From: a virus
Reading direction: 5' to 3' (one strand)
DNA: 47,169 bases
Virus record (IMG/VR): IMGVR_UViG_3300030333_000376
Location: 1-47,169 of that record
In this document: positions 12,642 through 29,926 of the stretch, piece after piece
Position numbering within the stretch: position 1 is the stretch's first letter
How the letters are laid out: every line of letters begins with the position of its first letter
Translations under genes and position numbers: made by a program
The notes under the pieces: model-generated
Database searches by the model: none
Seen by the model: only the letters and a program-made list of their open reading frames with translations
What the model was told of the DNA's origin: nothing

Positions 12642-13334
12642 TTAATTAACACTATCCATTATAGTCCCTTTTGGATTTATTGCAACACTTTTTTGCACCA
12701 CATAGCCCATAAAGTTATAGCTCTGCCAAACCTTAGTTACAGTTCCTAACTGTTCTAACTCATCCTGTAGCTCTGATTCTCGTTTGCAAAACATAGACAC
12801 TGATAGTTGCAAATCTTTATCCAGTATCTCTTTTTCTGTAAAACCTTTTCTTTTCTCTTGTATGTGCAACCTGTGTATAAGTGATTGCAACCTAGAGTCT
12901 TCCAAATATACTTTTTCTGAGATCAACAGCTTTGAACCCAACTTTATGTGTTGCTTTAAAAGATTGAGCACTCTAGCCCTCTTTTCACCACCTAAAAACT
13001 GTAAGAAAAACATACTGACAATAACAGAAGTAACAGCTTTGTTTTGCAACTGGTTTTCTAGCCACTTTTCTACATCACCTTCTATAAATAAAAAATTGTC
13101 CCTCCTTGTTTCCATGTCTACTGTGTCTACACCCACATACTTACAACCTTCTATCTGTGTCAAACCACTTAAAAATCTACCTGTAGAACAACCTATGTCT
13201 ACAACAGTGGTTTCTGGTTGAGCAAACTCATGTGTAATGTGTTTGAATATGTTGTCCAGTGTCAAATAATTTGGTATTGATAACTCTATGTGTTTTTCAA
13301 AATCATCAACCTTTTTAAAATCAAATCTCCCCAT
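12642..13334 (-). CDS. CmoA-like class I SAM-dependent enzyme
   Basis: 230 residues. Rossmann motif I VVDIGCSTGRFLSGL at 44-58, acidic end of strand 2 GVDT near 68-71, then FIEGDV and SMFFLQFL. The C-terminal half follows E. coli CmoA closely: LLISEKVYLED, H...K..GFTEKEI and W..YNFMGYVV. CmoA makes carboxy-SAM from SAM and prephenate. By ungapped alignment from memory, the residue equivalent to CmoA Arg199 (carboxylate binding) is Asp174 here, so the product may differ. It overlaps the DNA methyltransferase by 14 bases, which suggests a joint task. Alternatives: a tRNA or small-molecule methyltransferase. Family placement is firm at fold level, moderate at CmoA level. Confidence 0.75.
   Translation of the reverse strand: MGRFDFKKVDDFEKHIELSIPNYLTLDNIFKHITHEFAQPETTVVDIGCSTGRFLSGLTQIEGCKYVGVDTVDMETRRDNFLFIEGDVEKWLENQLQNKAVTSVIVSMFFLQFLGGEKRARVLNLLKQHIKLGSKLLISEKVYLEDSRLQSLIHRLHIQEKRKGFTEKEILDKDLQLSVSMFCKRESELQDELEQLGTVTKVWQSYNFMGYVVQKSVAINPKGTIMDSVN
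12658..12685 (-). promoter_or_regulatory. Promoter with operator-like element in the 3' end of the CmoA-like gene
   Basis: Minus strand: -35 TTGCAA (12685-12680), 16-base spacer, -10 TATAAT (12663-12658). The spacer holds TCCAAAAGGGA (12675-12665), an interrupted inverted repeat of type TCC-N5-GGA found at two other promoter-like sites. It would drive the four small genes 12626 to 11348. Hexamers are seen directly. Activity and regulator are inferred. Confidence 0.6.
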
Positions 13335-14397
13335 TGTGCACCTTCTTTAATCTGTCTCCTATATACTCCATAACATTGATTGACATAGCCCTACCACAGG
13401 CTTCATATCTTTTAGAAACAGGACATTCTTCTTTTGGTTTACCTCTGTATGGTATCTGTGTGTAGTTGTCTGGAAATCCTTGTAATCTCTCAGCTTCTAT
13501 TGGGGTGATTCTCCTTATAATGTTGTTTTTTCCTTCTGACTGTGTGTCTTCTGCAAACACTATAGGCTGTCTGTTACCTCCTGTCATGGCTGTAAGTGTC
13601 GGTGATATTTCATCTTTATATATACGAGGGCTTTTATCAGGTGTGCTAGTTTCAATGACAGTGTATCTATCATGTGCTGTTTGTGCCCAAGACACATCCT
13701 CATCAATTTTATACAAACTTTCTGTGTCTATTTTTTTCCAATATCTTTTTGTATCACTCTTTGCAAAGTCTGTTTCAGGGTTTTGGGTATTTTTGCTCCG
13801 TTTTCTTCTACTCGGTTTAGGATTTTCTGGCATTGAGCTTGAGTCAAATAATACTTTTCCTGCACTTCTCCAATCTCTAATATGTCCGATAACAAAGACA
13901 CGCCTTCTCCTTTGGGGGATAGCTCTTGGAAATCGTTGTGTTCTGACATACTCAGTGTTAAGAACCCTGTAGGCGAACCCATACCTGCATTCTGCCAAAC
14001 CTCCGAGAAAGGAAGCAAAGTCCCGTCCTCCATTAGACGACAAGACGCCGCACACATTTTCCCAGACGACCCAAGTGGGTTGGAGTCTCTGAGCCAATTT
14101 AATAAACTCAAGTGCGAGGTTTCCCCTTTCTGTATTGATACCTTTGCGAAGTCCAGCAATGCTGAATGTTGCACAGGGAGTTCCTCCCACAAGGACATCT
14201 GGTTGTGCTCTAAGGTCTGTTTTTTGGATTTTTGTGAAGTCGCCATAATTTTTTACCTCAGGATAATGATATTCTAAAACTGCTGACCTAAAGGGGTCAA
14301 TTTCTGATAAGCCTACTGGCTCAAAACCTAATGGATTCCAAGCCACACCTACTGACTCTATGCCACTACAAATTGATAGATATTTGATTTTGCTCAT
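13321..14397 (-). CDS. DNA (cytosine-5) methyltransferase with atypical motif X
   Basis: 358 residues and apparently complete. Motif I LSICSGIESVG (7-17), motif II SEID, motif IV GGTPCATFS with nucleophile Cys75, motif VI ENV (113-115), motif VIII QRRRRVFVIG (162-171), target-recognition region about 180-285, motif IX RRITPIEAERLQGFP and motif X CGRAMSINVMEYIG. In the usual motif X, GN(S/A), the Asn contacts the cofactor side; here it is Arg336 (AGG, read directly). No restriction enzyme gene is adjacent, so self-protection or hypermodification is more likely than restriction-modification. It begins at an ATG overlapping the stop of a 12-codon upstream frame and has no SD of its own. Confidence 0.93.
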   Translation of the reverse strand: MSKIKYLSICSGIESVGVAWNPLGFEPVGLSEIDPFRSAVLEYHYPEVKNYGDFTKIQKTDLRAQPDVLVGGTPCATFSIAGLRKGINTERGNLALEFIKLAQRLQPTWVVWENVCGVLSSNGGRDFASFLGGLAECRYGFAYRVLNTEYVRTQRFPRAIPQRRRRVFVIGHIRDWRSAGKVLFDSSSMPENPKPSRRKRSKNTQNPETDFAKSDTKRYWKKIDTESLYKIDEDVSWAQTAHDRYTVIETSTPDKSPRIYKDEISPTLTAMTGGNRQPIVFAEDTQSEGKNNIIRRITPIEAERLQGFPDNYTQIPYRGKPKEECPVSKRYEACGRAMSINVMEYIGDRLKKVHNGEI

Positions 14398-14435: not shown

Positions 14436-14603
14436 TTACCTGTGATGACCGTAATATTCATTGAATTTAGCTATGGCTTCTTCGTCTGTGTAAATCTTTT
14501 GATTAAATGATCTTTTTTCCTCACAGTCTAATGCCCACCAGTTATAGAAGTTATTAAAATAACTATTCTTAACATCATACTCAAATACTTCTTTCATTCT
14601 CAT
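14436..14603 (-). CDS. Very small hypothetical protein
   Basis: 55 residues from the ATG at 14603 (MRMKEVFEYDVKNSYF), chosen because GGAGG lies five bases upstream and the ATG overlaps the preceding gene's TGA. Aromatic-rich (YFNNFYNWW) and ending in EYYGHHR. No known domain. Part of the chain of tiny coupled genes. Confidence 0.6.
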   Translation of the reverse strand: MRMKEVFEYDVKNSYFNNFYNWWALDCEEKRSFNQKIYTDEEAIAKFNEYYGHHR

Positions 14604-14821
14604 TCTGTCCTCCAAACTCTGAAGCCATTTTCCCATTTTTTTGTTGTCCCTTTAAAACCATGGCGCTTTAATTTTAAACGTATTGCGCTAGCCATATTTT
14701 GAGTTGGACAGAAAACTGAATCACCTACTTCTAGACTGTATATGTCAAAATAATATTTTGATGATTTTAGTCGTTTGTTAGGTATAGGTATGTCCTTTTC
14801 AATTTTAAAATCTTCACTCAT
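14600..14821 (-). CDS. Small basic hypothetical protein
   Basis: 73 residues, MSEDFKIEKDIPIPNKRLKS. The central segment GDSVFCPTQNMASAIRLKLKRHGF resembles small phage proteins with an N-terminal strand hairpin and a helix bearing basic residues, possibly nucleic-acid binding. SD AAGGGGGAAAAATG. The stop overlaps the next start (ATGA). Function unknown. Confidence 0.63.
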   Translation of the reverse strand: MSEDFKIEKDIPIPNKRLKSSKYYFDIYSLEVGDSVFCPTQNMASAIRLKLKRHGFKGTTKKWENGFRVWRTE

Positions 14822-20710: not shown

Positions 20711-20739
20711 ATACTAAATCCGTTCTGGTCTTGGGTCAA
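20711..20739 (-). promoter_or_regulatory. Promoter for the replication gene
   Basis: Minus strand -35 TTGACC (20739-20734), 17-base spacer, -10 TAGTAT (20716-20711), 30 bases ahead of the replication gene ATG. It lacks the TCCAAANNGGA element, so it may escape the control proposed for the other early promoters. Confidence 0.55.
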
Positions 20740-21602
20740 CTCCTTCTGTCAATTAATACTAATGCTTGGTCGTAAGCCTGCTTCCAAGTCCAAGTACAAT
20801 ACTCGCCACCAGAACCTTCTTCAAAATAATCTTCATTTAGTTCTAAGTCATTTTGATCATAAACATCCAATCTCATTTCTCCTTCAAACCATTCCTCATT
20901 TCTTTCTATTCTGAGCCATTCATGTTTTGTAAGGAGTTCTTCGCATTTTTGCTTATAGCTTTTTACTGGTTTTCTTTTTACAGGCTCTTTGTATTTTGAA
21001 GTTAGCTTTTCTTCGTCATACTTCTTCTCATATTTAGCAATGCTTTTCTCAACCTTCTTCAAACTATTAGCTACTCTTTTAAGATTAGATTCATACTGCT
21101 TCTGTTTCTTTAAAAGATTCTCTTGTCTTGACTTGAGTTGGTTGTAGTTCTTATGAACTGGGTTGAGAATTTTCTTCTTTGGTTTATCGGCTAAAGCCTG
21201 CCTAGACTTTTCTATATAACCACCATCAAAAACAAATTTCGTCAACCTTAATTCTAATACTGCATGGTTGGCACTATGTGGTCTTTCATTGGGATATTTT
21301 TTATAGTGTGTTAGGTGTCCTATATCATGAACTATATTACTCCAACCACTTTCAGGATTAAGAGTTAAGACCTTAGTTCTCCAAGTAACCCAATTATCTC
21401 TATTACCTGAACCTTCTCTAATTTCATAAGGTAATTTCTTACCTATTTCTTTTTTCCAAAAAGTCCTTACAACTTTTTTTGCAATTTCAAAATCAACCTT
21501 TTCGGTTTTTTCGTTAGACCTAGAACGAATTGGAAACCCATTCTCTTTCCAAATGGTATTTATTTGTTGATACCTTTCTAATGCTTCTTTTGATGTTTTC
21601 AC
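20736..21602 (-). CDS. Zincin-like putative metallopeptidase with HDIGH motif and coiled coil
   Basis: 288 residues. The segment GWSNIVHDIGHLTHY (H92, D93, H96) occupies the place of a zincin HExxH helix but has Asp for Glu. RPHSANHAVLE (H109, H113, E117) follows, reminiscent of SprT-type third-ligand segments. From about residue 145 to 215 it is a long, Lys/Glu-rich coiled coil, then an acidic Trp/Tyr-rich end. Asp in place of the catalytic Glu could weaken or abolish protease activity, so metal binding without catalysis is possible. The start overlaps the upstream stop (ATGA). It may degrade or bind host protein early in infection. Confidence 0.55.
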   Translation of the reverse strand: MKTSKEALERYQQINTIWKENGFPIRSRSNEKTEKVDFEIAKKVVRTFWKKEIGKKLPYEIREGSGNRDNWVTWRTKVLTLNPESGWSNIVHDIGHLTHYKKYPNERPHSANHAVLELRLTKFVFDGGYIEKSRQALADKPKKKILNPVHKNYNQLKSRQENLLKKQKQYESNLKRVANSLKKVEKSIAKYEKKYDEEKLTSKYKEPVKRKPVKSYKQKCEELLTKHEWLRIERNEEWFEGEMRLDVYDQNDLELNEDYFEEGSGGEYCTWTWKQAYDQALVLIDRRS

Positions 21603-21986: not shown

Positions 21987-22175
21987 ATGACGCAATATGA
22001 TTATAAAGTTGATTCGGTTAGACAAAGATTGAAGGCTGAAGAACTGGACAGACAGATAGAATCTTACTATGCTGATTCTAAAATGGTCAGAACTAGATAT
22101 AGGAGTGGACGTATTTTAATAAAATACAAAGACCCTAATCTACATTCAGTTGAAATATTTGAAGAACCTATATGA
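21987..22175 (+). CDS. Small hypothetical protein upstream of the oxygenase
   Basis: 62 residues from the ATG at 21987 (MTQYDYKVDSVRQRLKAEEL), because GGGGGA lies seven bases upstream. The in-frame ATG at 21972 would have none. Helical and basic first half, then a strand-rich end (GRILIKYKDPNLHSVEIFEE). The stop overlaps the oxygenase ATG (ATGA), so the two are coupled and may act together. No family recognised. Confidence 0.6.
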   Translation: MTQYDYKVDSVRQRLKAEELDRQIESYYADSKMVRTRYRSGRILIKYKDPNLHSVEIFEEPI

Positions 22176-22732
22176 ATAGTTGGTGGTATGCTTGGGATGC
22201 AGAACTTTCTGAGTCTGCTTGTGATGAACTTCGTATGCTCATCACCCAAGTTGACACCAAGCTAGGAGAAGTTGGTCACGACAATACCAGTCTTAACAAA
22301 AAGATAAGGTCATCTGAAATAGTAGGCATTGATTACAACAATCCTTATTCAGACTTTATCAACAGCCTTGTCTACAAATATATAGTCATGGCTAATAGGG
22401 AAAGTTTTGGCTTTAACTTAAATGGAATGTATGAGTTCCAATTAGGTAAATATAAAGCAGGAGACTTCTACACTGAGCACATGGACTGTAACTTGTTGAA
22501 TAATGCTTCTCAAAGAAAGCTAAGTGTTACAGTTCAACTTAGTCACAGCAAAGAATATGAAGGTGGAGACTTTGTTTTTACTAAAGATATACCCACACCT
22601 GACAAAGAATTAATTAGGCAGAAGGGAACTGTTATAGTGTTTCCTTCTTTTTTATATCATCAAGTAATGCCAGTAACTAAAGGAACTAGATATTCTTTAG
22701 TGGGTTGGTATGAGGGTAATGATTGGATTTAG
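22172..22732 (+). CDS. 2-oxoglutarate/Fe(II)-dependent oxygenase (prolyl-hydroxylase-like)
   Basis: 186 residues. Iron ligands are H103 and D105 in FYTEHMDC and H163 in FLYHQVMPV. R173 in KGTRYSLVGW binds the 2-oxoglutarate carboxylate. The segment LSVTVQLSHSKEYEGGDFVF between them is the double-stranded beta-helix signature of P4Hc/PiuC-like hydroxylases. Such genes are common in marine phages and hydroxylate proteins or, in some cases, bases. The substrate here is unknown. Only this gene and its coupled partner occupy the plus strand in this region. Confidence 0.88.
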   Translation: MNSWWYAWDAELSESACDELRMLITQVDTKLGEVGHDNTSLNKKIRSSEIVGIDYNNPYSDFINSLVYKYIVMANRESFGFNLNGMYEFQLGKYKAGDFYTEHMDCNLLNNASQRKLSVTVQLSHSKEYEGGDFVFTKDIPTPDKELIRQKGTVIVFPSFLYHQVMPVTKGTRYSLVGWYEGNDWI

Positions 22733-24445: not shown

Positions 24446-24821
24446 CAAACTGGTTTGGATTACTTATCTTTTCAAGAGTTGCCATGACTCTTGCTGATGC
24501 TTTATTAATTCTATTCTGTAAATCTTCTGGGTTAGCTAACGCAGATTCATCTAAATCTAAGTTGGAAAATGTTTTTCTCAACCTATTAACGTCTTTCATG
24601 GCTTGTCTATTTTCTTCAGCTAAATTATTCATCTGCTGCTGTTGTTGTTTTGCTTGTTCTAAATGCCTTTCTATGGCTTCGTTCTGTTCTTCTATTTGTG
24701 TCTCAAGGACTATTTGATTCCCTTTCAGGGTAGCTATCTGGTCGTTTAGATAATCAATGTAATACCAAGAACTCGCTAATGATACTAATAACAATCCCCC
24801 TAGTATTAATGATAATTTCAT
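24423..24821 (-). CDS. Inner-membrane spanin-like protein (Rz-type role)
   Basis: 132 residues from the ATG at 24821, which overlaps the cyclase stop (ATGA). A single N-terminal membrane segment (KLSLILGGLLLVSLASSWYY) is followed by a long Gln/Glu-rich coiled coil (about 25-90) in the periplasm and a short helical end. Topology, coiled coil and overlap with a lipoprotein gene match Rz-type i-spanins. No sequence motif is diagnostic, so the call is by architecture and context. Confidence 0.72.
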   Translation of the reverse strand: MKLSLILGGLLLVSLASSWYYIDYLNDQIATLKGNQIVLETQIEEQNEAIERHLEQAKQQQQQMNNLAEENRQAMKDVNRLRKTFSNLDLDESALANPEDLQNRINKASARVMATLEKISNPNQFDEAHSSN

Positions 24822-26602
24822 TCCCATGTATACACTTGTAATGGTTTTTCTTTACCTTTGACCTTCAAAGGTTGCAACAATCTTAACTCATAATCACATT
24901 TAATGGCAGTGTTATATCCAATAACTGTATTGACACCTAATTCTTTACAAGCCGATTCTAGCCTTGCTGCTGTATTCACACCATCACCTAGACTTGTAAA
25001 CCTGACAGATGACATCTCTCCTTTACCACCTATCTTACCTATTGAGCCTTGAGATACCCAGTCTGTATTTATACCACAACCTATGCCTAACTCTGGATAA
25101 CCGTCTGCTTTTAGTTCTTTGTTAAGTTCTTCCATCTTTTCGTGCATCTTTAAAGCACACTCTAAAGCTGCGTTTTCATGTTTGTCTAAAGGAACTACTG
25201 AATTCCAACTGGCATAAATGCAGTCACCGATTGTATTGTCATGCAAACCGTTGGTATTATGTACTTGGTCAATCAACATTGACAAAATTCGGTTAAGCAT
25301 GGCTGTTACTTCGGTTGCCTCCATTTGCTCTGATAGGGTCGTATAATTCCTAATGTCTACGAATAGGTGGCTTGAGTAAACACGCTCACCGTCTAGTTTT
25401 ATATCTTCCTTAATAATCTTTTTTACCTGTCTTGGATGTAAATAAGAAGAAAAAAGTTTTTGTACCTGCTTTCTTTTTTTCCATTGCTCTCTAAATCTCA
25501 TATAAAAAGCTACAGAACCAGTTATAAATTGAGATATTAATGCCCAAGTTACATCTATTAGTAATCCTTGTTGAATAGTCCAGAAGCCAAAATAAGCCGT
25601 TGTAAGCATCAAACCTATAAATAGTGTAATACCTAAGGTAATACCAAAAACGTACAGCAGAAGCCACGCAAATAGCACTGACAGGGCAAATATACCTACC
25701 TCTAGTGCTAGAGCATAGTCAGGAATATAAGGACTGTTTTCAATAAGTATAGATTCTGCTAATGCAGCCTGAATCTTATGTGGCTCCAAAAGTTGATTAT
25801 TAGGTACAGCTAATTGAGGCATTATTCCTTTCGCAGTAAAACCAACAAATACAAACTTATTTTCTACATCCATTTCTTTGAGGTCTGTCTGTGGAGTATC
25901 TACCCACGAAACCCATTTACGACCAAGAGCATCAGTTTTTACAGGTGGTAAACCTTTTACTCTTATTTCCTCTATTCCTATTTCATTAGTTTTAATAACG
26001 TATGTATCAGTCCCTGTTAATATTTTTAATACTTCAGTACCATAAGCAGGAACCCAACCATCAGGAGTCCTTAGTAATAAAGGTAATCGCCTTATTAATG
26101 AATCAACTTCAACTCTAGCAACTGCTATACCTTGATTGGCGTTCTCTTTAAGTATATCTATGTTTTGAATAACTCCCTGTGCATCAATTCCACCTTTGTC
26201 ATCACCCATAATGACTGTTCCTGTTGTCGGTGGAAAATCTCCGTTATCATTTTCAAACATTGCTAGAACACTAGGTGCATAAGATAGAACTTGAGAGAAT
26301 TGGGGGTCGCCTCCGAATCTATCTGGTTGTGGAAAGGCAATAACCCAACCCACACCTAGTGCTCCGTTATTTAATAATTCTAAATGAATTTCAGCTAGTC
26401 TTTGTCTGCTTAGTGGGTAACCACCTTCTCTAGCTATATCATCTTCTGTAATATTAAGTATTGTGAAATATCCAGAAGGTTGTTGTTCTGGAACTAATGC
26501 ATCAAATGTTTTTAGTTTTAAGGTTTCATAAGGAACATTTTCAAATACTAAGGGCATACCCAATAGAACTAAAAGAACTATTGGTATTAACCTCTTAATC
26601 AT
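24818..26602 (-). CDS. CHASE2 sensor fused to a class III nucleotide cyclase
   Basis: 594 residues. An N-terminal membrane anchor (about 4-20), then a periplasmic CHASE2 sensor to about 295 (FDALVPEQ, YPLSRQRLA, VFVGFTAKG), three membrane helices (about 299-368) and a cytoplasmic cyclase domain from about 405. Metal-binding Asp416 (LFVDIRNYT) and Asp460 (IGDC), transition-state Asn543 and Arg547 (DGVNTAARLE) are present, and Thr536 is in the second purine-contact position as in class IIIb. The usual purine-specifying Lys is Asn456 (HDNTIGD), so specificity for ATP is uncertain. It overlaps a curlin-repeat gene upstream and a spanin downstream. It makes a cyclic nucleotide if active. Confidence 0.9.
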   Translation of the reverse strand: MIKRLIPIVLLVLLGMPLVFENVPYETLKLKTFDALVPEQQPSGYFTILNITEDDIAREGGYPLSRQRLAEIHLELLNNGALGVGWVIAFPQPDRFGGDPQFSQVLSYAPSVLAMFENDNGDFPPTTGTVIMGDDKGGIDAQGVIQNIDILKENANQGIAVARVEVDSLIRRLPLLLRTPDGWVPAYGTEVLKILTGTDTYVIKTNEIGIEEIRVKGLPPVKTDALGRKWVSWVDTPQTDLKEMDVENKFVFVGFTAKGIMPQLAVPNNQLLEPHKIQAALAESILIENSPYIPDYALALEVGIFALSVLFAWLLLYVFGITLGITLFIGLMLTTAYFGFWTIQQGLLIDVTWALISQFITGSVAFYMRFREQWKKRKQVQKLFSSYLHPRQVKKIIKEDIKLDGERVYSSHLFVDIRNYTTLSEQMEATEVTAMLNRILSMLIDQVHNTNGLHDNTIGDCIYASWNSVVPLDKHENAALECALKMHEKMEELNKELKADGYPELGIGCGINTDWVSQGSIGKIGGKGEMSSVRFTSLGDGVNTAARLESACKELGVNTVIGYNTAIKCDYELRLLQPLKVKGKEKPLQVYTWE

Positions 26603-27377
26603 ATTGAGTAATGGTTACAGTCTTGGTGCAATTAGTTACACAGTTATAGTTAGCTGTGAATGATTTATTGGTAGTTCCACTTTGAGTAACTGCTACATTA
26701 TAGTCATCAGTCCAAAAATTAAGTCTTGCAGTATGATTACCTGAACCTGATTGATTTATAGACGCTGTTCCATTATCTGCGTCTGAATACCAGAACACAT
26801 CAGCATCATGATTTCCAGAGCCAGTCTGTGTAATCGTTGTAACATTACCATCAGCATAATTATAGTTATAGACGTAAGCGTTATGTTGTCCTGTTCCTGA
26901 TTGAGTAATGGTCGTAGTAGCATCATCTCCAAATGCCCATATTTTTGCGTACTTGTTGTTTCCAGTTTGTGATATTGAATAGGTAGTGTCATCTCCTGCC
27001 ATTAATATTTCACCATGATTATCATCTCCATTCTGAGTTATAGTGGCTGTATTATCATCTTGGTCTAAATCTAAATATCCATAATTATCATCGCCTGTCT
27101 GGGTTATGGTGAAGTTATTGTCTGTGTGGTTAGACCATTGAGAATAGGCTTTAGTCGTATTTCCTGAGCCTGTAGTGGTTAAATTGATGGTCGCCCTAGT
27201 GCAAGTATGGGTTTGGTATATTCCGTTGCTTAAACCACAATATACAGTGGCATTATTTGTATATCCTACCTGCTTAATATTGATAAGAGAATCATTACCT
27301 TTTTGCTGAATAACAGTTGAGTTGTTTCCTGCAAAAAGGGGAAAACTAATCAGACTGATTAATAATAATCGTACCAT
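26595..27377 (-). CDS. Second curlin-repeat secreted protein
   Basis: 260 residues from the ATG at 27377 (MVRLLLISLISFPLFAGNNS), with a signal peptide cut after about residue 16. The ATG at 27389 would add four residues. The mature part has about seven repeats of roughly 22-26 residues, each with a core such as ITQTGDDN, ITQNGDDN, ISQTGNNK or ITQSGTGQ. This is the Gln/Gly/Asn spacing of curlin strand-turn repeats that stack into amyloid. Two Cys pairs flank the array. It overlaps the FecR gene by 32 bases and the cyclase by 8. Likely a CsgG-exported fibre subunit or nucleator. Confidence 0.82.
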   Translation of the reverse strand: MVRLLLISLISFPLFAGNNSTVIQQKGNDSLINIKQVGYTNNATVYCGLSNGIYQTHTCTRATINLTTTGSGNTTKAYSQWSNHTDNNFTITQTGDDNYGYLDLDQDDNTATITQNGDDNHGEILMAGDDTTYSISQTGNNKYAKIWAFGDDATTTITQSGTGQHNAYVYNYNYADGNVTTITQTGSGNHDADVFWYSDADNGTASINQSGSGNHTARLNFWTDDYNVAVTQSGTTNKSFTANYNCVTNCTKTVTITQYD

Positions 27378-28410
27378 CACCTCCACCATTTACTGTTATA
27401 TTTATAAATTTTCCACCTGATAATATTTGAATGTTATAAGCACTCCTCTTTTCTATCTGTAAGTCTATCGTATTTTCCACACTTCTGAAAAAATTTAGCA
27501 TCTCACCTTCTACAAAACTATACACTTGAGCCTTTGGGTCATAGCCTGCAATGATGCCTTCTAAGGTAACATCACCTATTTTAGAGACTTCATCTTCGCC
27601 TTCTATAAAAGCTAATAGGTCTATTAAGAAATCTACGTTTAATAAATCTATGGATAACCTGTCTATTTCCAGTTCATCTTCTTCTAATTCATCTTCATCA
27701 AAGTTTTCTTCTAAAAAGTCCACGTCCAATACATTAGTGCTTCTGGTGTTTTGTTCATCTACTGCTTGTTCTACTTCATCTGGTGGATTAACTATTAAAA
27801 GGTTATTAATGAAGTTTAAGGTCATATTTACTAAAGTGACTGGTTTGGTAGGGGGTGCTTCAGAAACGCTTACCATGGTAGCCTGAAAGGGCTTATTTAG
27901 GATTTCTATACCTGCTGCAGTCTCTACTGTTATTTCCCCTGAACTTGTACCATCTTCATTGGGAAGCAATATCACCAGTGATCGCCCTATTTCGTCTACT
28001 GTCGTAGTGAAGTCTGTGCCACGAATTGAGATGATTGCACTTGGAGTCTTGATAGATATATTCTTTTTATCTATTTTTCCTAGCTTACCTGTAATAAATC
28101 TAGCAGTACCACTAGCCATATTAAGAGCCAGTCTTGATTTACTTGGATTTGGGTCATAGATGTATTCATCAACAACTATTTTAGAATGTTCAGTCAATTT
28201 AATAACTGAATCATCTAAGAACTGTATAGCCATACGACCATTGCCAGTCCTTACATCATCATTACTAAGTATGCCTAAAGCCAACTCAGCTAATAATTTA
28301 TCTCCACCATCACTTCGGAGAACTTCACCATTTCCCCTTAGTTCAGATATAGAGCCTATATCTGCGTATAAAGAACTAGATACTAACCCTATTAACAACC
28401 ACTTGTGCAT
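27346..28410 (-). CDS. Secreted FecR-domain protein
   Basis: 354 residues. Signal peptide MHKWLLIGLVSSSLYA. The FecR domain spans about 45-150: DDVRTGNGRMAIQFLDDSVI, ALNMASGTARFITGKL and TPSAIISIRGTDF. An acidic-hydrophobic segment follows (about 225-270) with repeated patterns such as FDEDELEEDELEID, then a beta-rich end. No membrane segment follows the signal and no sigma factor or receptor gene is nearby, so this is not a classical Fec system. Free FecR proteins accompany CHASE2 cyclases in bacteria, as here. It may bind carbohydrate or curlin in the periplasm. Overlaps both curlin genes. Confidence 0.82.
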   Translation of the reverse strand: MHKWLLIGLVSSSLYADIGSISELRGNGEVLRSDGGDKLLAELALGILSNDDVRTGNGRMAIQFLDDSVIKLTEHSKIVVDEYIYDPNPSKSRLALNMASGTARFITGKLGKIDKKNISIKTPSAIISIRGTDFTTTVDEIGRSLVILLPNEDGTSSGEITVETAAGIEILNKPFQATMVSVSEAPPTKPVTLVNMTLNFINNLLIVNPPDEVEQAVDEQNTRSTNVLDVDFLEENFDEDELEEDELEIDRLSIDLLNVDFLIDLLAFIEGEDEVSKIGDVTLEGIIAGYDPKAQVYSFVEGEMLNFFRSVENTIDLQIEKRSAYNIQILSGGKFINITVNGGGDGTIIINQSD

Positions 28411-29078
28411 TGGTCAATGTTTATCGTACCGCTTGTAGAAGCTGCGACTATATTGATTGTGTCTGTTACACCTGATGCACTTGTTGTTTGGTCAATGTCT
28501 ATATCGTTACTGTCTCCTGTAATACTGGCTGTTATGCTCTTATCATCAGTTCCTATCTGAGTAACATCTATGTCATTGCTGTTGCCATCTATAGTCCAAT
28601 TATTGACTGCTCCAATAACCTCACTTCTGATGTTTAAATCATTAGAGTTACCAGTTATAACTGCGTCAAAATTACCACCTGTAGCAGCACTTGAACTACC
28701 TTGTAACCAAGTCAAAATGTTTTGGTTACCTGTGGCAGAATAGTCAAAGTCAGAACTTGTTACAGCACCACTACCTCCTGCAGTTATAGAGCTCGTATTA
28801 GAATCACCAATTTGGTACATAGTCCAAGAAGAACTTGCTGCCTGAGCTATAGAATTCGCCAAAGTGTTTGAGTTACCTTGTTGCTTTATATCAGCAGTTA
28901 TTGAAGCACCTGCAAAAGTAGACCTTGTACTTGAAGTACCCACTTTATTAGTATGACCAATTTGATCTATCGTTAGATTAAATGCTCCACCACCTGATTG
29001 CGTGATGTAAATATCATTGTCTCCTGACCACAGATTAAACGTTGCTAGTATTAATAAAAGTTGTAATAAATATTTCAT
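28392..29078 (-). CDS. Curlin-repeat secreted protein (CsgA/CsgB-like)
   Basis: 228 residues. Signal peptide MKYLLQLLLILATFNLWSG, then repeats with cores such as IDQIGHTN, IKQQGNSN, MYQIGDSN and VTQIGTDD, often followed by GNSNDI. These are curlin-type strand-loop-strand units. The spacing is less regular than in CsgA, with more Ser/Ala/Asp. It ends CTSGC, a Cys pair also found in the second curlin. SD AAGAGGATAATG. The start overlaps the csgG stop (TAATG), so translation is coupled to the pore that should export it. Confidence 0.82.
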   Translation of the reverse strand: MKYLLQLLLILATFNLWSGDNDIYITQSGGGAFNLTIDQIGHTNKVGTSSTRSTFAGASITADIKQQGNSNTLANSIAQAASSSWTMYQIGDSNTSSITAGGSGAVTSSDFDYSATGNQNILTWLQGSSSAATGGNFDAVITGNSNDLNIRSEVIGAVNNWTIDGNSNDIDVTQIGTDDKSITASITGDSNDIDIDQTTSASGVTDTINIVAASTSGTINIDQCTSGC

Positions 29079-29926
29079 TATCCTCTTACTCCATCTATAG
29101 GGTTTGGAATCTCAATATAATTGTAATCCCATAACTCCTTTTGTAAGCCTTCCATTACTAACTCGTAGACTGCTGTTTCTATGGCAGACCTAACTGCATA
29201 CCCTGTGGCTTCCGTCTGTGTATAGCCTGTTTCTATTTCTACTAATTCGGTATCACCTACTTCTGTAAATCTAAAAACATCTCTGCTTACACCTGCACTC
29301 AGTATTGTCTTGCTTACTGTTACATTCAATATAACTTCGCCTGTCTGTACGAGAACTGCCCTCATGGACACAGTTACATCATCTATTCGGTATTGGTTTG
29401 TATTCCCAATCCCCAAATACCTTGCACCATTTCCACCAGTCCTTATATCAGACTCATAGGAAACTATGCCACCTTCCAAGATTATACCTGCATATAGAAT
29501 TGGCTTCAGTTTATTAGCACCTTTACCATCGTAGGTTTCTCTTGTTGATTTAATTAATTGACGTTCCTTCGTTAAATTGTTGAGTCCTTTCCTTTCTACA
29601 ACCACAAACCATTCACCATTGCCTGCACTCCTCAATGCCTGTATTAAATAGTTTTCTGCCCCTTGTGTTACTGCTGTAGAAAATAAAGCCATTCTATTTG
29701 AAGGCTTACGCTGTCCAGTTAAGTCATCAAAATTATATACAGCCACAACTGCCTTTTGGTTAGGTGGTCTTAAGTCTAATAGTCGTTGTAAAGTTGTTCT
29801 CTCTACTCTTGCATCTTCAGGGCAAGTTAGTCCATGTAATAAACACTTATCTGCTCTAGGTGGTGCAAAAGAAGCACAACCTGTTAAGGCTAGTATTAGG
29901 ATTATATTCCACAGTCTGCAGTACAT
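29078..29926 (-). CDS. csgG: CsgG outer-membrane curli secretion channel
   Basis: 282 residues. Lipobox LTGC with Cys17. The CsgG core follows throughout: AVYNFDDLTGQRKPSN, LFSTAVTQGAENYLIQALRS, WFVVVERKGLNNLTKERQLI, AGIILEGGIVSYESDI, GGNGARYLGIGNTNQYRIDD, VNVTVSKTILS-like strands, DVFRFTEVGDTELVEIETGY and the C-terminal AIETAVYELVMEG. CsgG forms a nonameric pore that exports curlin. In the constriction loop the Phe is kept (F82) but the neighbouring Asn and Tyr positions appear changed. It overlaps csgF and the first curlin gene. Assignment is firm; its role in a phage is not. Confidence 0.95.
   Translation of the reverse strand: MYCRLWNIILILALTGCASFAPPRADKCLLHGLTCPEDARVERTTLQRLLDLRPPNQKAVVAVYNFDDLTGQRKPSNRMALFSTAVTQGAENYLIQALRSAGNGEWFVVVERKGLNNLTKERQLIKSTRETYDGKGANKLKPILYAGIILEGGIVSYESDIRTGGNGARYLGIGNTNQYRIDDVTVSMRAVLVQTGEVILNVTVSKTILSAGVSRDVFRFTEVGDTELVEIETGYTQTEATGYAVRSAIETAVYELVMEGLQKELWDYNYIEIPNPIDGVRG

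Follow-up and report, generated by a model that had tools for sequence, protein, structure and literature searches.

The analysed DNA (hereafter the window) is a 47,169-base IMG/VR virus record that encodes terminase, portal, protease, head and tail genes. The nearest terminases share less than 60% identity with that of the window and come from varied hosts, and no host is assigned from them. On the minus strand, the gene of a C5-cytosine methyltransferase (MTase) overlaps a CmoA-like gene, and a further probable gene lies in the +1 frame within the MTase gene (Table 1). Elsewhere in the window, a curli-like cluster (24818-29926, minus strand) comprises CsgG, two curlin-repeat proteins, a FecR-domain protein and a CHASE2-cyclase protein; curli genes have been reported in pelagiphages (PMC9599517, PMC7029224). 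A 2OG-Fe(II) oxygenase gene (PF13640) is located on the opposite, plus strand (22172-22732) and has matches in ten fetched relatives.

Table 1. Features of the MTase/CmoA-like locus, with the evidence used to identify each.
Feature	Coordinates	Strand	Evidence
C5-cytosine MTase, putative carboxymethyltransferase (CmoX-like), 358 aa	13321..14397	-	PF00145, TIGR00675, motifs, AlphaFold2
Arg336 codon AGG, motif X, HhaI Asn304 position	13390..13392	-	HMMER and MAFFT alignments
Catalytic Cys75 (TGT) and Ala76 (GCA; HhaI Q82 position)	14170..14175	-	Clade alignment
CmoA-like protein, putative carboxy-SAM synthase, 230 aa	12642..13334	-	4GEK, TIGR00740, phrog_4752
14-nt MTase/CmoA-like overlap	13321..13334	-	Coordinates
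Very probable overprinted +1-frame gene, 172 aa, inside the MTase gene	13728..14246	-	ORF conservation, synonymous suppression
Two small ORFs, 66 and 73 aa; site of the CmoY ligase in some relatives	14436..14821	-	

The MTase matches PF00145 (E 1.6e-49) and TIGR00675. Its frame is open and the catalytic Cys, ENV and QxRxR motifs of the C5-MTase fold are all intact, which rules out a pseudogene. Motif X reads KRYEACGRAMSINVME. The first-pass annotation had proposed that the normally conserved Asn of this motif is replaced by Arg336, and HMMER and MAFFT alignments bear this out, placing Arg336 opposite both Asn304 of HhaI and Arg350 of CmoX from phage S-B43. An AlphaFold2 model, computed from input alignments of window and contig sequences only, superposes on HhaI with a Z score of 26.3 and on the CmoX structure 8YF3 with 21.9. 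Motif X falls within the aligned range. Chance or a sequencing error can be ruled out, since Arg is invariant across the clade of the window MTase (30/30 distinct full-length sequences); all 138 relatives outside this clade have Asn.

The adjoining gene had been likened to CmoA, and the database matches agree. Its best PDB match is E. coli CmoA of the tRNA cmo5U pathway (4GEK, E 1.5e-15, residues 4-213), to which it is homologous over nearly its full length, with about 28% identity in the best-covered stretch. Its best NCBIfam match is TIGR00740 (CmoA, E 7.6e-20), at 71.6 bits against an equivalog cut-off of 193.3 bits, and it also matches phrog_4752. The assignment of this protein as CmoA rests on homology. 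No CmoB partner was seen adjoining the gene, unlike in the E. coli cmo5U pathway. The majority of the cofactor-contacting residues of E. coli CmoA are retained (Tyr39, Asp62, Gly64, Ser66, Asp89, Asp117 and Glu164), while Asn90 is replaced by Thr and Asn132 by Met. Arg199 of E. coli CmoA binds carboxylate (PMC3663124). The equivalent position is Asp in the window protein, Asp or Glu across its clade and Glu in S-B43 CmoA, an enzyme measured to be about 10 times faster than E. coli CmoA (PMC12783734). We therefore reject the loss of Arg199 as a disproof of CmoA-like function, because the active S-B43 enzyme has Glu there.

The general idea of the first-pass annotation, a natural phage pair altering cytosine, was published in December 2025 for another phage lineage. 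In Synechococcus phage S-B43, CmoA is encoded together with CmoX, a C5-MTase of the Arg type, and CmoY, a ligase resembling AsnB (Yang et al., Nat Commun 2025, PMC12783734). CmoA and CmoX together produce 5-carboxymethylcytosine (5cxmC), detected by LC-MS; CmoX requires a GC motif, and its Arg350 contacts the carboxylate of carboxy-SAM (Cx-SAM) in PDB 8YF3 (PMC12783734). CmoX uses only Cx-SAM and not SAM, and the R350N variant is inactive with either cofactor (PMC12783734). CmoY attaches glycine to 5cxmC, and S-B43 phage DNA contains the glycine amide only, without free 5cxmC (PMC12783734). Engineered precedents also exist. M.MpeI N374K is an engineered carboxymethyltransferase (cited in PMC12783734), and the first-pass annotation had described this Asn-to-Lys variant correctly. 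In M.HhaI, Q82A/N304A is a pair shortened by engineering to admit extended SAM analogues (PMC10666283).

Co-occurrence of motif X variants and CmoA-like genes, which had been suggested as a check, shows a clear association within the family of the window MTase. Among family MTase loci with their fetched flanks, CmoA is present in 52/53 Arg loci and 0/146 Asn loci, a count that includes loci found via CmoA and contigs listed twice under separate locus identifiers. Among loci from the family-profile MTase scans, the proportion of Arg loci with CmoA is 5/6. The 52 positive loci are not 52 independent events, because Arg and CmoA are co-inherited within one clade; the S-B43 lineage is a second independent case of the pairing. 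In all Arg-type relatives measured, the start of CmoA overlaps the end of the MTase by 1-46 nt. Considering that this overlap is always present while the outer neighbours of the pair vary freely, the two genes act as a cassette.

The single Arg-type MTase locus lacking CmoA is L058 (5010-6744). A CmoA gene just beyond the fetched flank was ruled out, as the whole 58,965-base record has none; this MTase may use the Cx-SAM of its host. By eye, the gene after it resembles a flavin-dependent thymidylate synthase (ThyX). In another locus (L047, 5039-6645), a CmoA that is 44% identical to that of the window overlaps a C5-MTase without the Arg, which has Thr at the Q82 position and Met at the N304 position. 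Staphylococcus phage vB-SscS-F1 (L218, 4977-7495) encodes CmoA, a CmoY-like protein (35% identical to SpCmoY) and a distant C5-MTase consecutively; the motif X region of the latter is VVGGVIN, in which Arg is not evident.

A second residue of the cofactor pocket has changed together with motif X. At the HhaI Q82 position, directly after the catalytic Cys, Ala is found in 30/30 sequences of the Arg clade and Gln in 137 of the 138 Asn relatives. In the S-B43-type family the pair is Ser at Q82 and Arg at N304 (80/80); an Aphanizomenon phage supplies its Asn neighbour, in which Gln and Asn occupy these positions. Both Arg lineages have thus altered the same two positions, Q82 to Ala or Ser and N304 to Arg. 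These are also the positions altered in M.HhaI Q82A/N304A; the window MTase differs in having Arg rather than Ala at N304, which would suit a charged carboxylate and not just bulk. We regard this match between natural lineages and M.HhaI engineering as the best of the new evidence that the window MTase takes a larger cofactor. As in M.MpeI N374K, the Asn of motif X has given way to a basic residue, but the window MTase is natural, has Arg and not Lys, is also naturally altered at Q82 and has an apparently dedicated CmoA. Arg in motif X, combined with a small residue directly following the catalytic Cys, would offer a simple sequence rule for finding more such enzymes.

The window MTase does not belong to the S-B43 CmoX lineage. 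At motif IV it has GTPC, like the rest of its clade, and not SPPC. It consequently lies outside the filter of the published survey, which retained 5,615 sequences with both SPPC and Arg (PMC12783734). Its family profile matches HhaI (E 1.7e-35) better than 8YF3 (E 3.9e-12). The first tree had several long branches, the worst of which were removed before the tree was rebuilt and the AU test run. In the resulting 50-sequence tree, the Arg clade (n=23, support 100/97.5) joins the Asn enzyme L061, so that the window MTase nests among ordinary Asn methyltransferases, and the AU test rejects a single clade of the window Arg group and S-B43-type CmoX (p = 0.0038), with the long branches between the groups as a caveat. 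L061 is the nearest Asn relative (55% identity to the window MTase); it has Gln and Asn at the pocket positions, and its 32-kb record contains no CmoA match. Together with the MTase of Roseobacter phage CRP-821 and the Dmt of phages P1/P7, it represents the ordinary GTPC C5-MTases that form the parent family of the window enzyme. These share with it the GTPC motif IV and the overprinted +1-frame gene, but have Gln and Asn in the pocket and no CmoA neighbour.

Judging from its sequence, the window MTase is a convergent CmoX-like enzyme. We use this label because it would work like CmoX, but has GTPC at motif IV and is separated from the S-B43 lineage by the AU test. In both systems, a CmoA homologue adjoins a C5-MTase whose pocket has Arg at the N304 position and a small residue in place of Q82, and close relatives of the window also share a homologous CmoY. 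The window differs from S-B43 in its MTase lineage, in the overlap of the MTase and CmoA genes, in the absence of CmoY and in the overprinted gene carried by its family. As part of the best explanation, carboxymethylation would have arisen among phage 5mC methyltransferases of the ordinary kind, separately from the S-B43 CmoX lineage.

It is very likely that the two window genes form a phage DNA-hypermodification pair, which makes carboxy-SAM and places its carboxymethyl group on cytosine C5. The interpretation in the first-pass annotation thus appears right in kind. We infer the cofactor, product, role and target site of the pair along the following lines. The CmoA-like enzyme would convert SAM and prephenate to carboxy-SAM. 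The MTase would bind this cofactor, with Arg336 pairing with the extra carboxylate and Ala76 giving room, and, using Cys75 and Glu113 in the usual mechanism, would transfer the carboxymethyl group to cytosine C5 within its target sites. The modification would probably protect the phage against host restriction. The Arg-CmoA association, the change at Q82 and the CmoY of relatives all point the same way as the S-B43 chemistry. Weighing against this reading are the score of the CmoA-like protein below the NCBIfam cut-off, its Asp at the Arg199 position, the L058 locus without CmoA and the Met of the L047 MTase. In three relatives (L012, L018 and L032), the MTase genes have 494-538 codons and contain an insert of about 150 residues in the variable region, absent from the window MTase, that looks helix-turn-helix-like by eye. 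This insert suggests that their target recognition differs from that of the window enzyme.

The end product is predicted with less confidence than this first step. A CmoY that is 49-53% identical to that of S-B43 is encoded directly upstream of the MTase in four relatives (L009, L014, L015 and L057), and further relatives with CmoY are found among later loci. In these close relatives, the adjoining CmoY probably adds glycine. CmoY is common but not universal near CmoX, being absent beside it in S-CRM01 according to the annotation. The window was also searched for CmoY at other positions, without success: homology searches gave no homologue at E up to 10, and Pfam and PHROG scans of the larger genes gave no ligase, in a record that is possibly incomplete. 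Plain 5cxmC is therefore the probable end product in the window phage. Alternatively, 5cxmC could be only an intermediate whose carboxylate is capped by a phage or host enzyme, giving another mature base. The exclusive glycine amide of S-B43 DNA, the CmoY genes of relatives and several window genes without known family (e.g. 20736-21602) fit such capping. Against it, besides the searches of the window, L007 carries the same cassette cleanly without CmoY, in synteny with the CmoY-bearing L009. We regard capping as unlikely, but as the most credible of the alternatives.

Much less probable is an ordinary 5mC methyltransferase that tolerates Arg, located beside a CmoA-like gene serving tRNA modification or another methylation. 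The PF00145 fold and the full set of catalytic motifs are those of 5mC MTases, L058 has the Arg without CmoA, and E. coli CmoA does serve tRNA cmo5U. However, the Arg-CmoA linkage, the Q82 change and the CmoY adjoining the MTase in relatives are difficult to reconcile with plain methylation, and the Arg-bearing CmoX of S-B43 takes Cx-SAM and not SAM. Least probable of all is a CmoA-like enzyme producing some other SAM analogue, with a group other than carboxymethyl on the base, as the Asp/Glu replacing Arg199 in the clade might suggest, but S-B43 CmoA makes Cx-SAM with Glu at this position and relatives are accompanied by a CmoY close to the proven 5cxmC ligase.

The family also carries an overprinted ORF within the MTase gene, a feature absent from the first-pass annotation. 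It was found in 201 family MTases, always in the +1 frame, in Arg and Asn types and in phages and prophages. It is also present in dam/dmt of phage P7 (L220, from about 2299; E 3e-28) and, more weakly, in L047, and was not found in S-B43-type CmoX. Shuffling of synonymous codons introduces a median of 3.7 stops across the ORF, and 6.9 in the window, where none of 200 shuffles stays open. In the +2 frame of the MTases, the median longest open run is 66 codons. Synonymous differences are fewer in the overlap than downstream, both in the Arg clade (0.28 vs 0.50; 435/435 pairs) and in the Asn enzymes (0.41 vs 0.64; 768/780 pairs), the pair counts being descriptive as pairs share ancestry. Shine-Dalgarno-like sequences precede many of the ORF starts. 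Considering its conservation, its freedom from stops relative to shuffles, the suppressed synonymous change and these start signals, the ORF very probably represents a genuine gene that is under selection. Of the overprinted family, 71/74 members are matched by PHROG 16143, so some phage annotations already include the gene, labelled as DNA methyltransferase; literature searches found no description of it. The predicted structure of the protein has a mean pLDDT of 58, with only the C-terminal helical part predicted well. As regards any part in the modification pathway, the gene is a candidate only.

The mechanism itself is known from S-B43; what is new is the independent origin and the two-residue rule. 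On balance, we favour a second independent family of phage cytosine carboxymethyltransferases, with the same two changes and shared CmoA/CmoY modules, and with an overprinted protein that may take part in the modification or control it. If this is true, DNA carboxymethylation has evolved at least twice from ordinary methyltransferases through the same two residues, as a natural replay of the protein engineering on M.HhaI and M.MpeI. 5cxmC would then reach phages missed by the SPPC-based survey. Carboxymethyltransferases with different recognition domains would also be on offer, a practical gain given that the carboxylate can be loaded with cargo by ligases.
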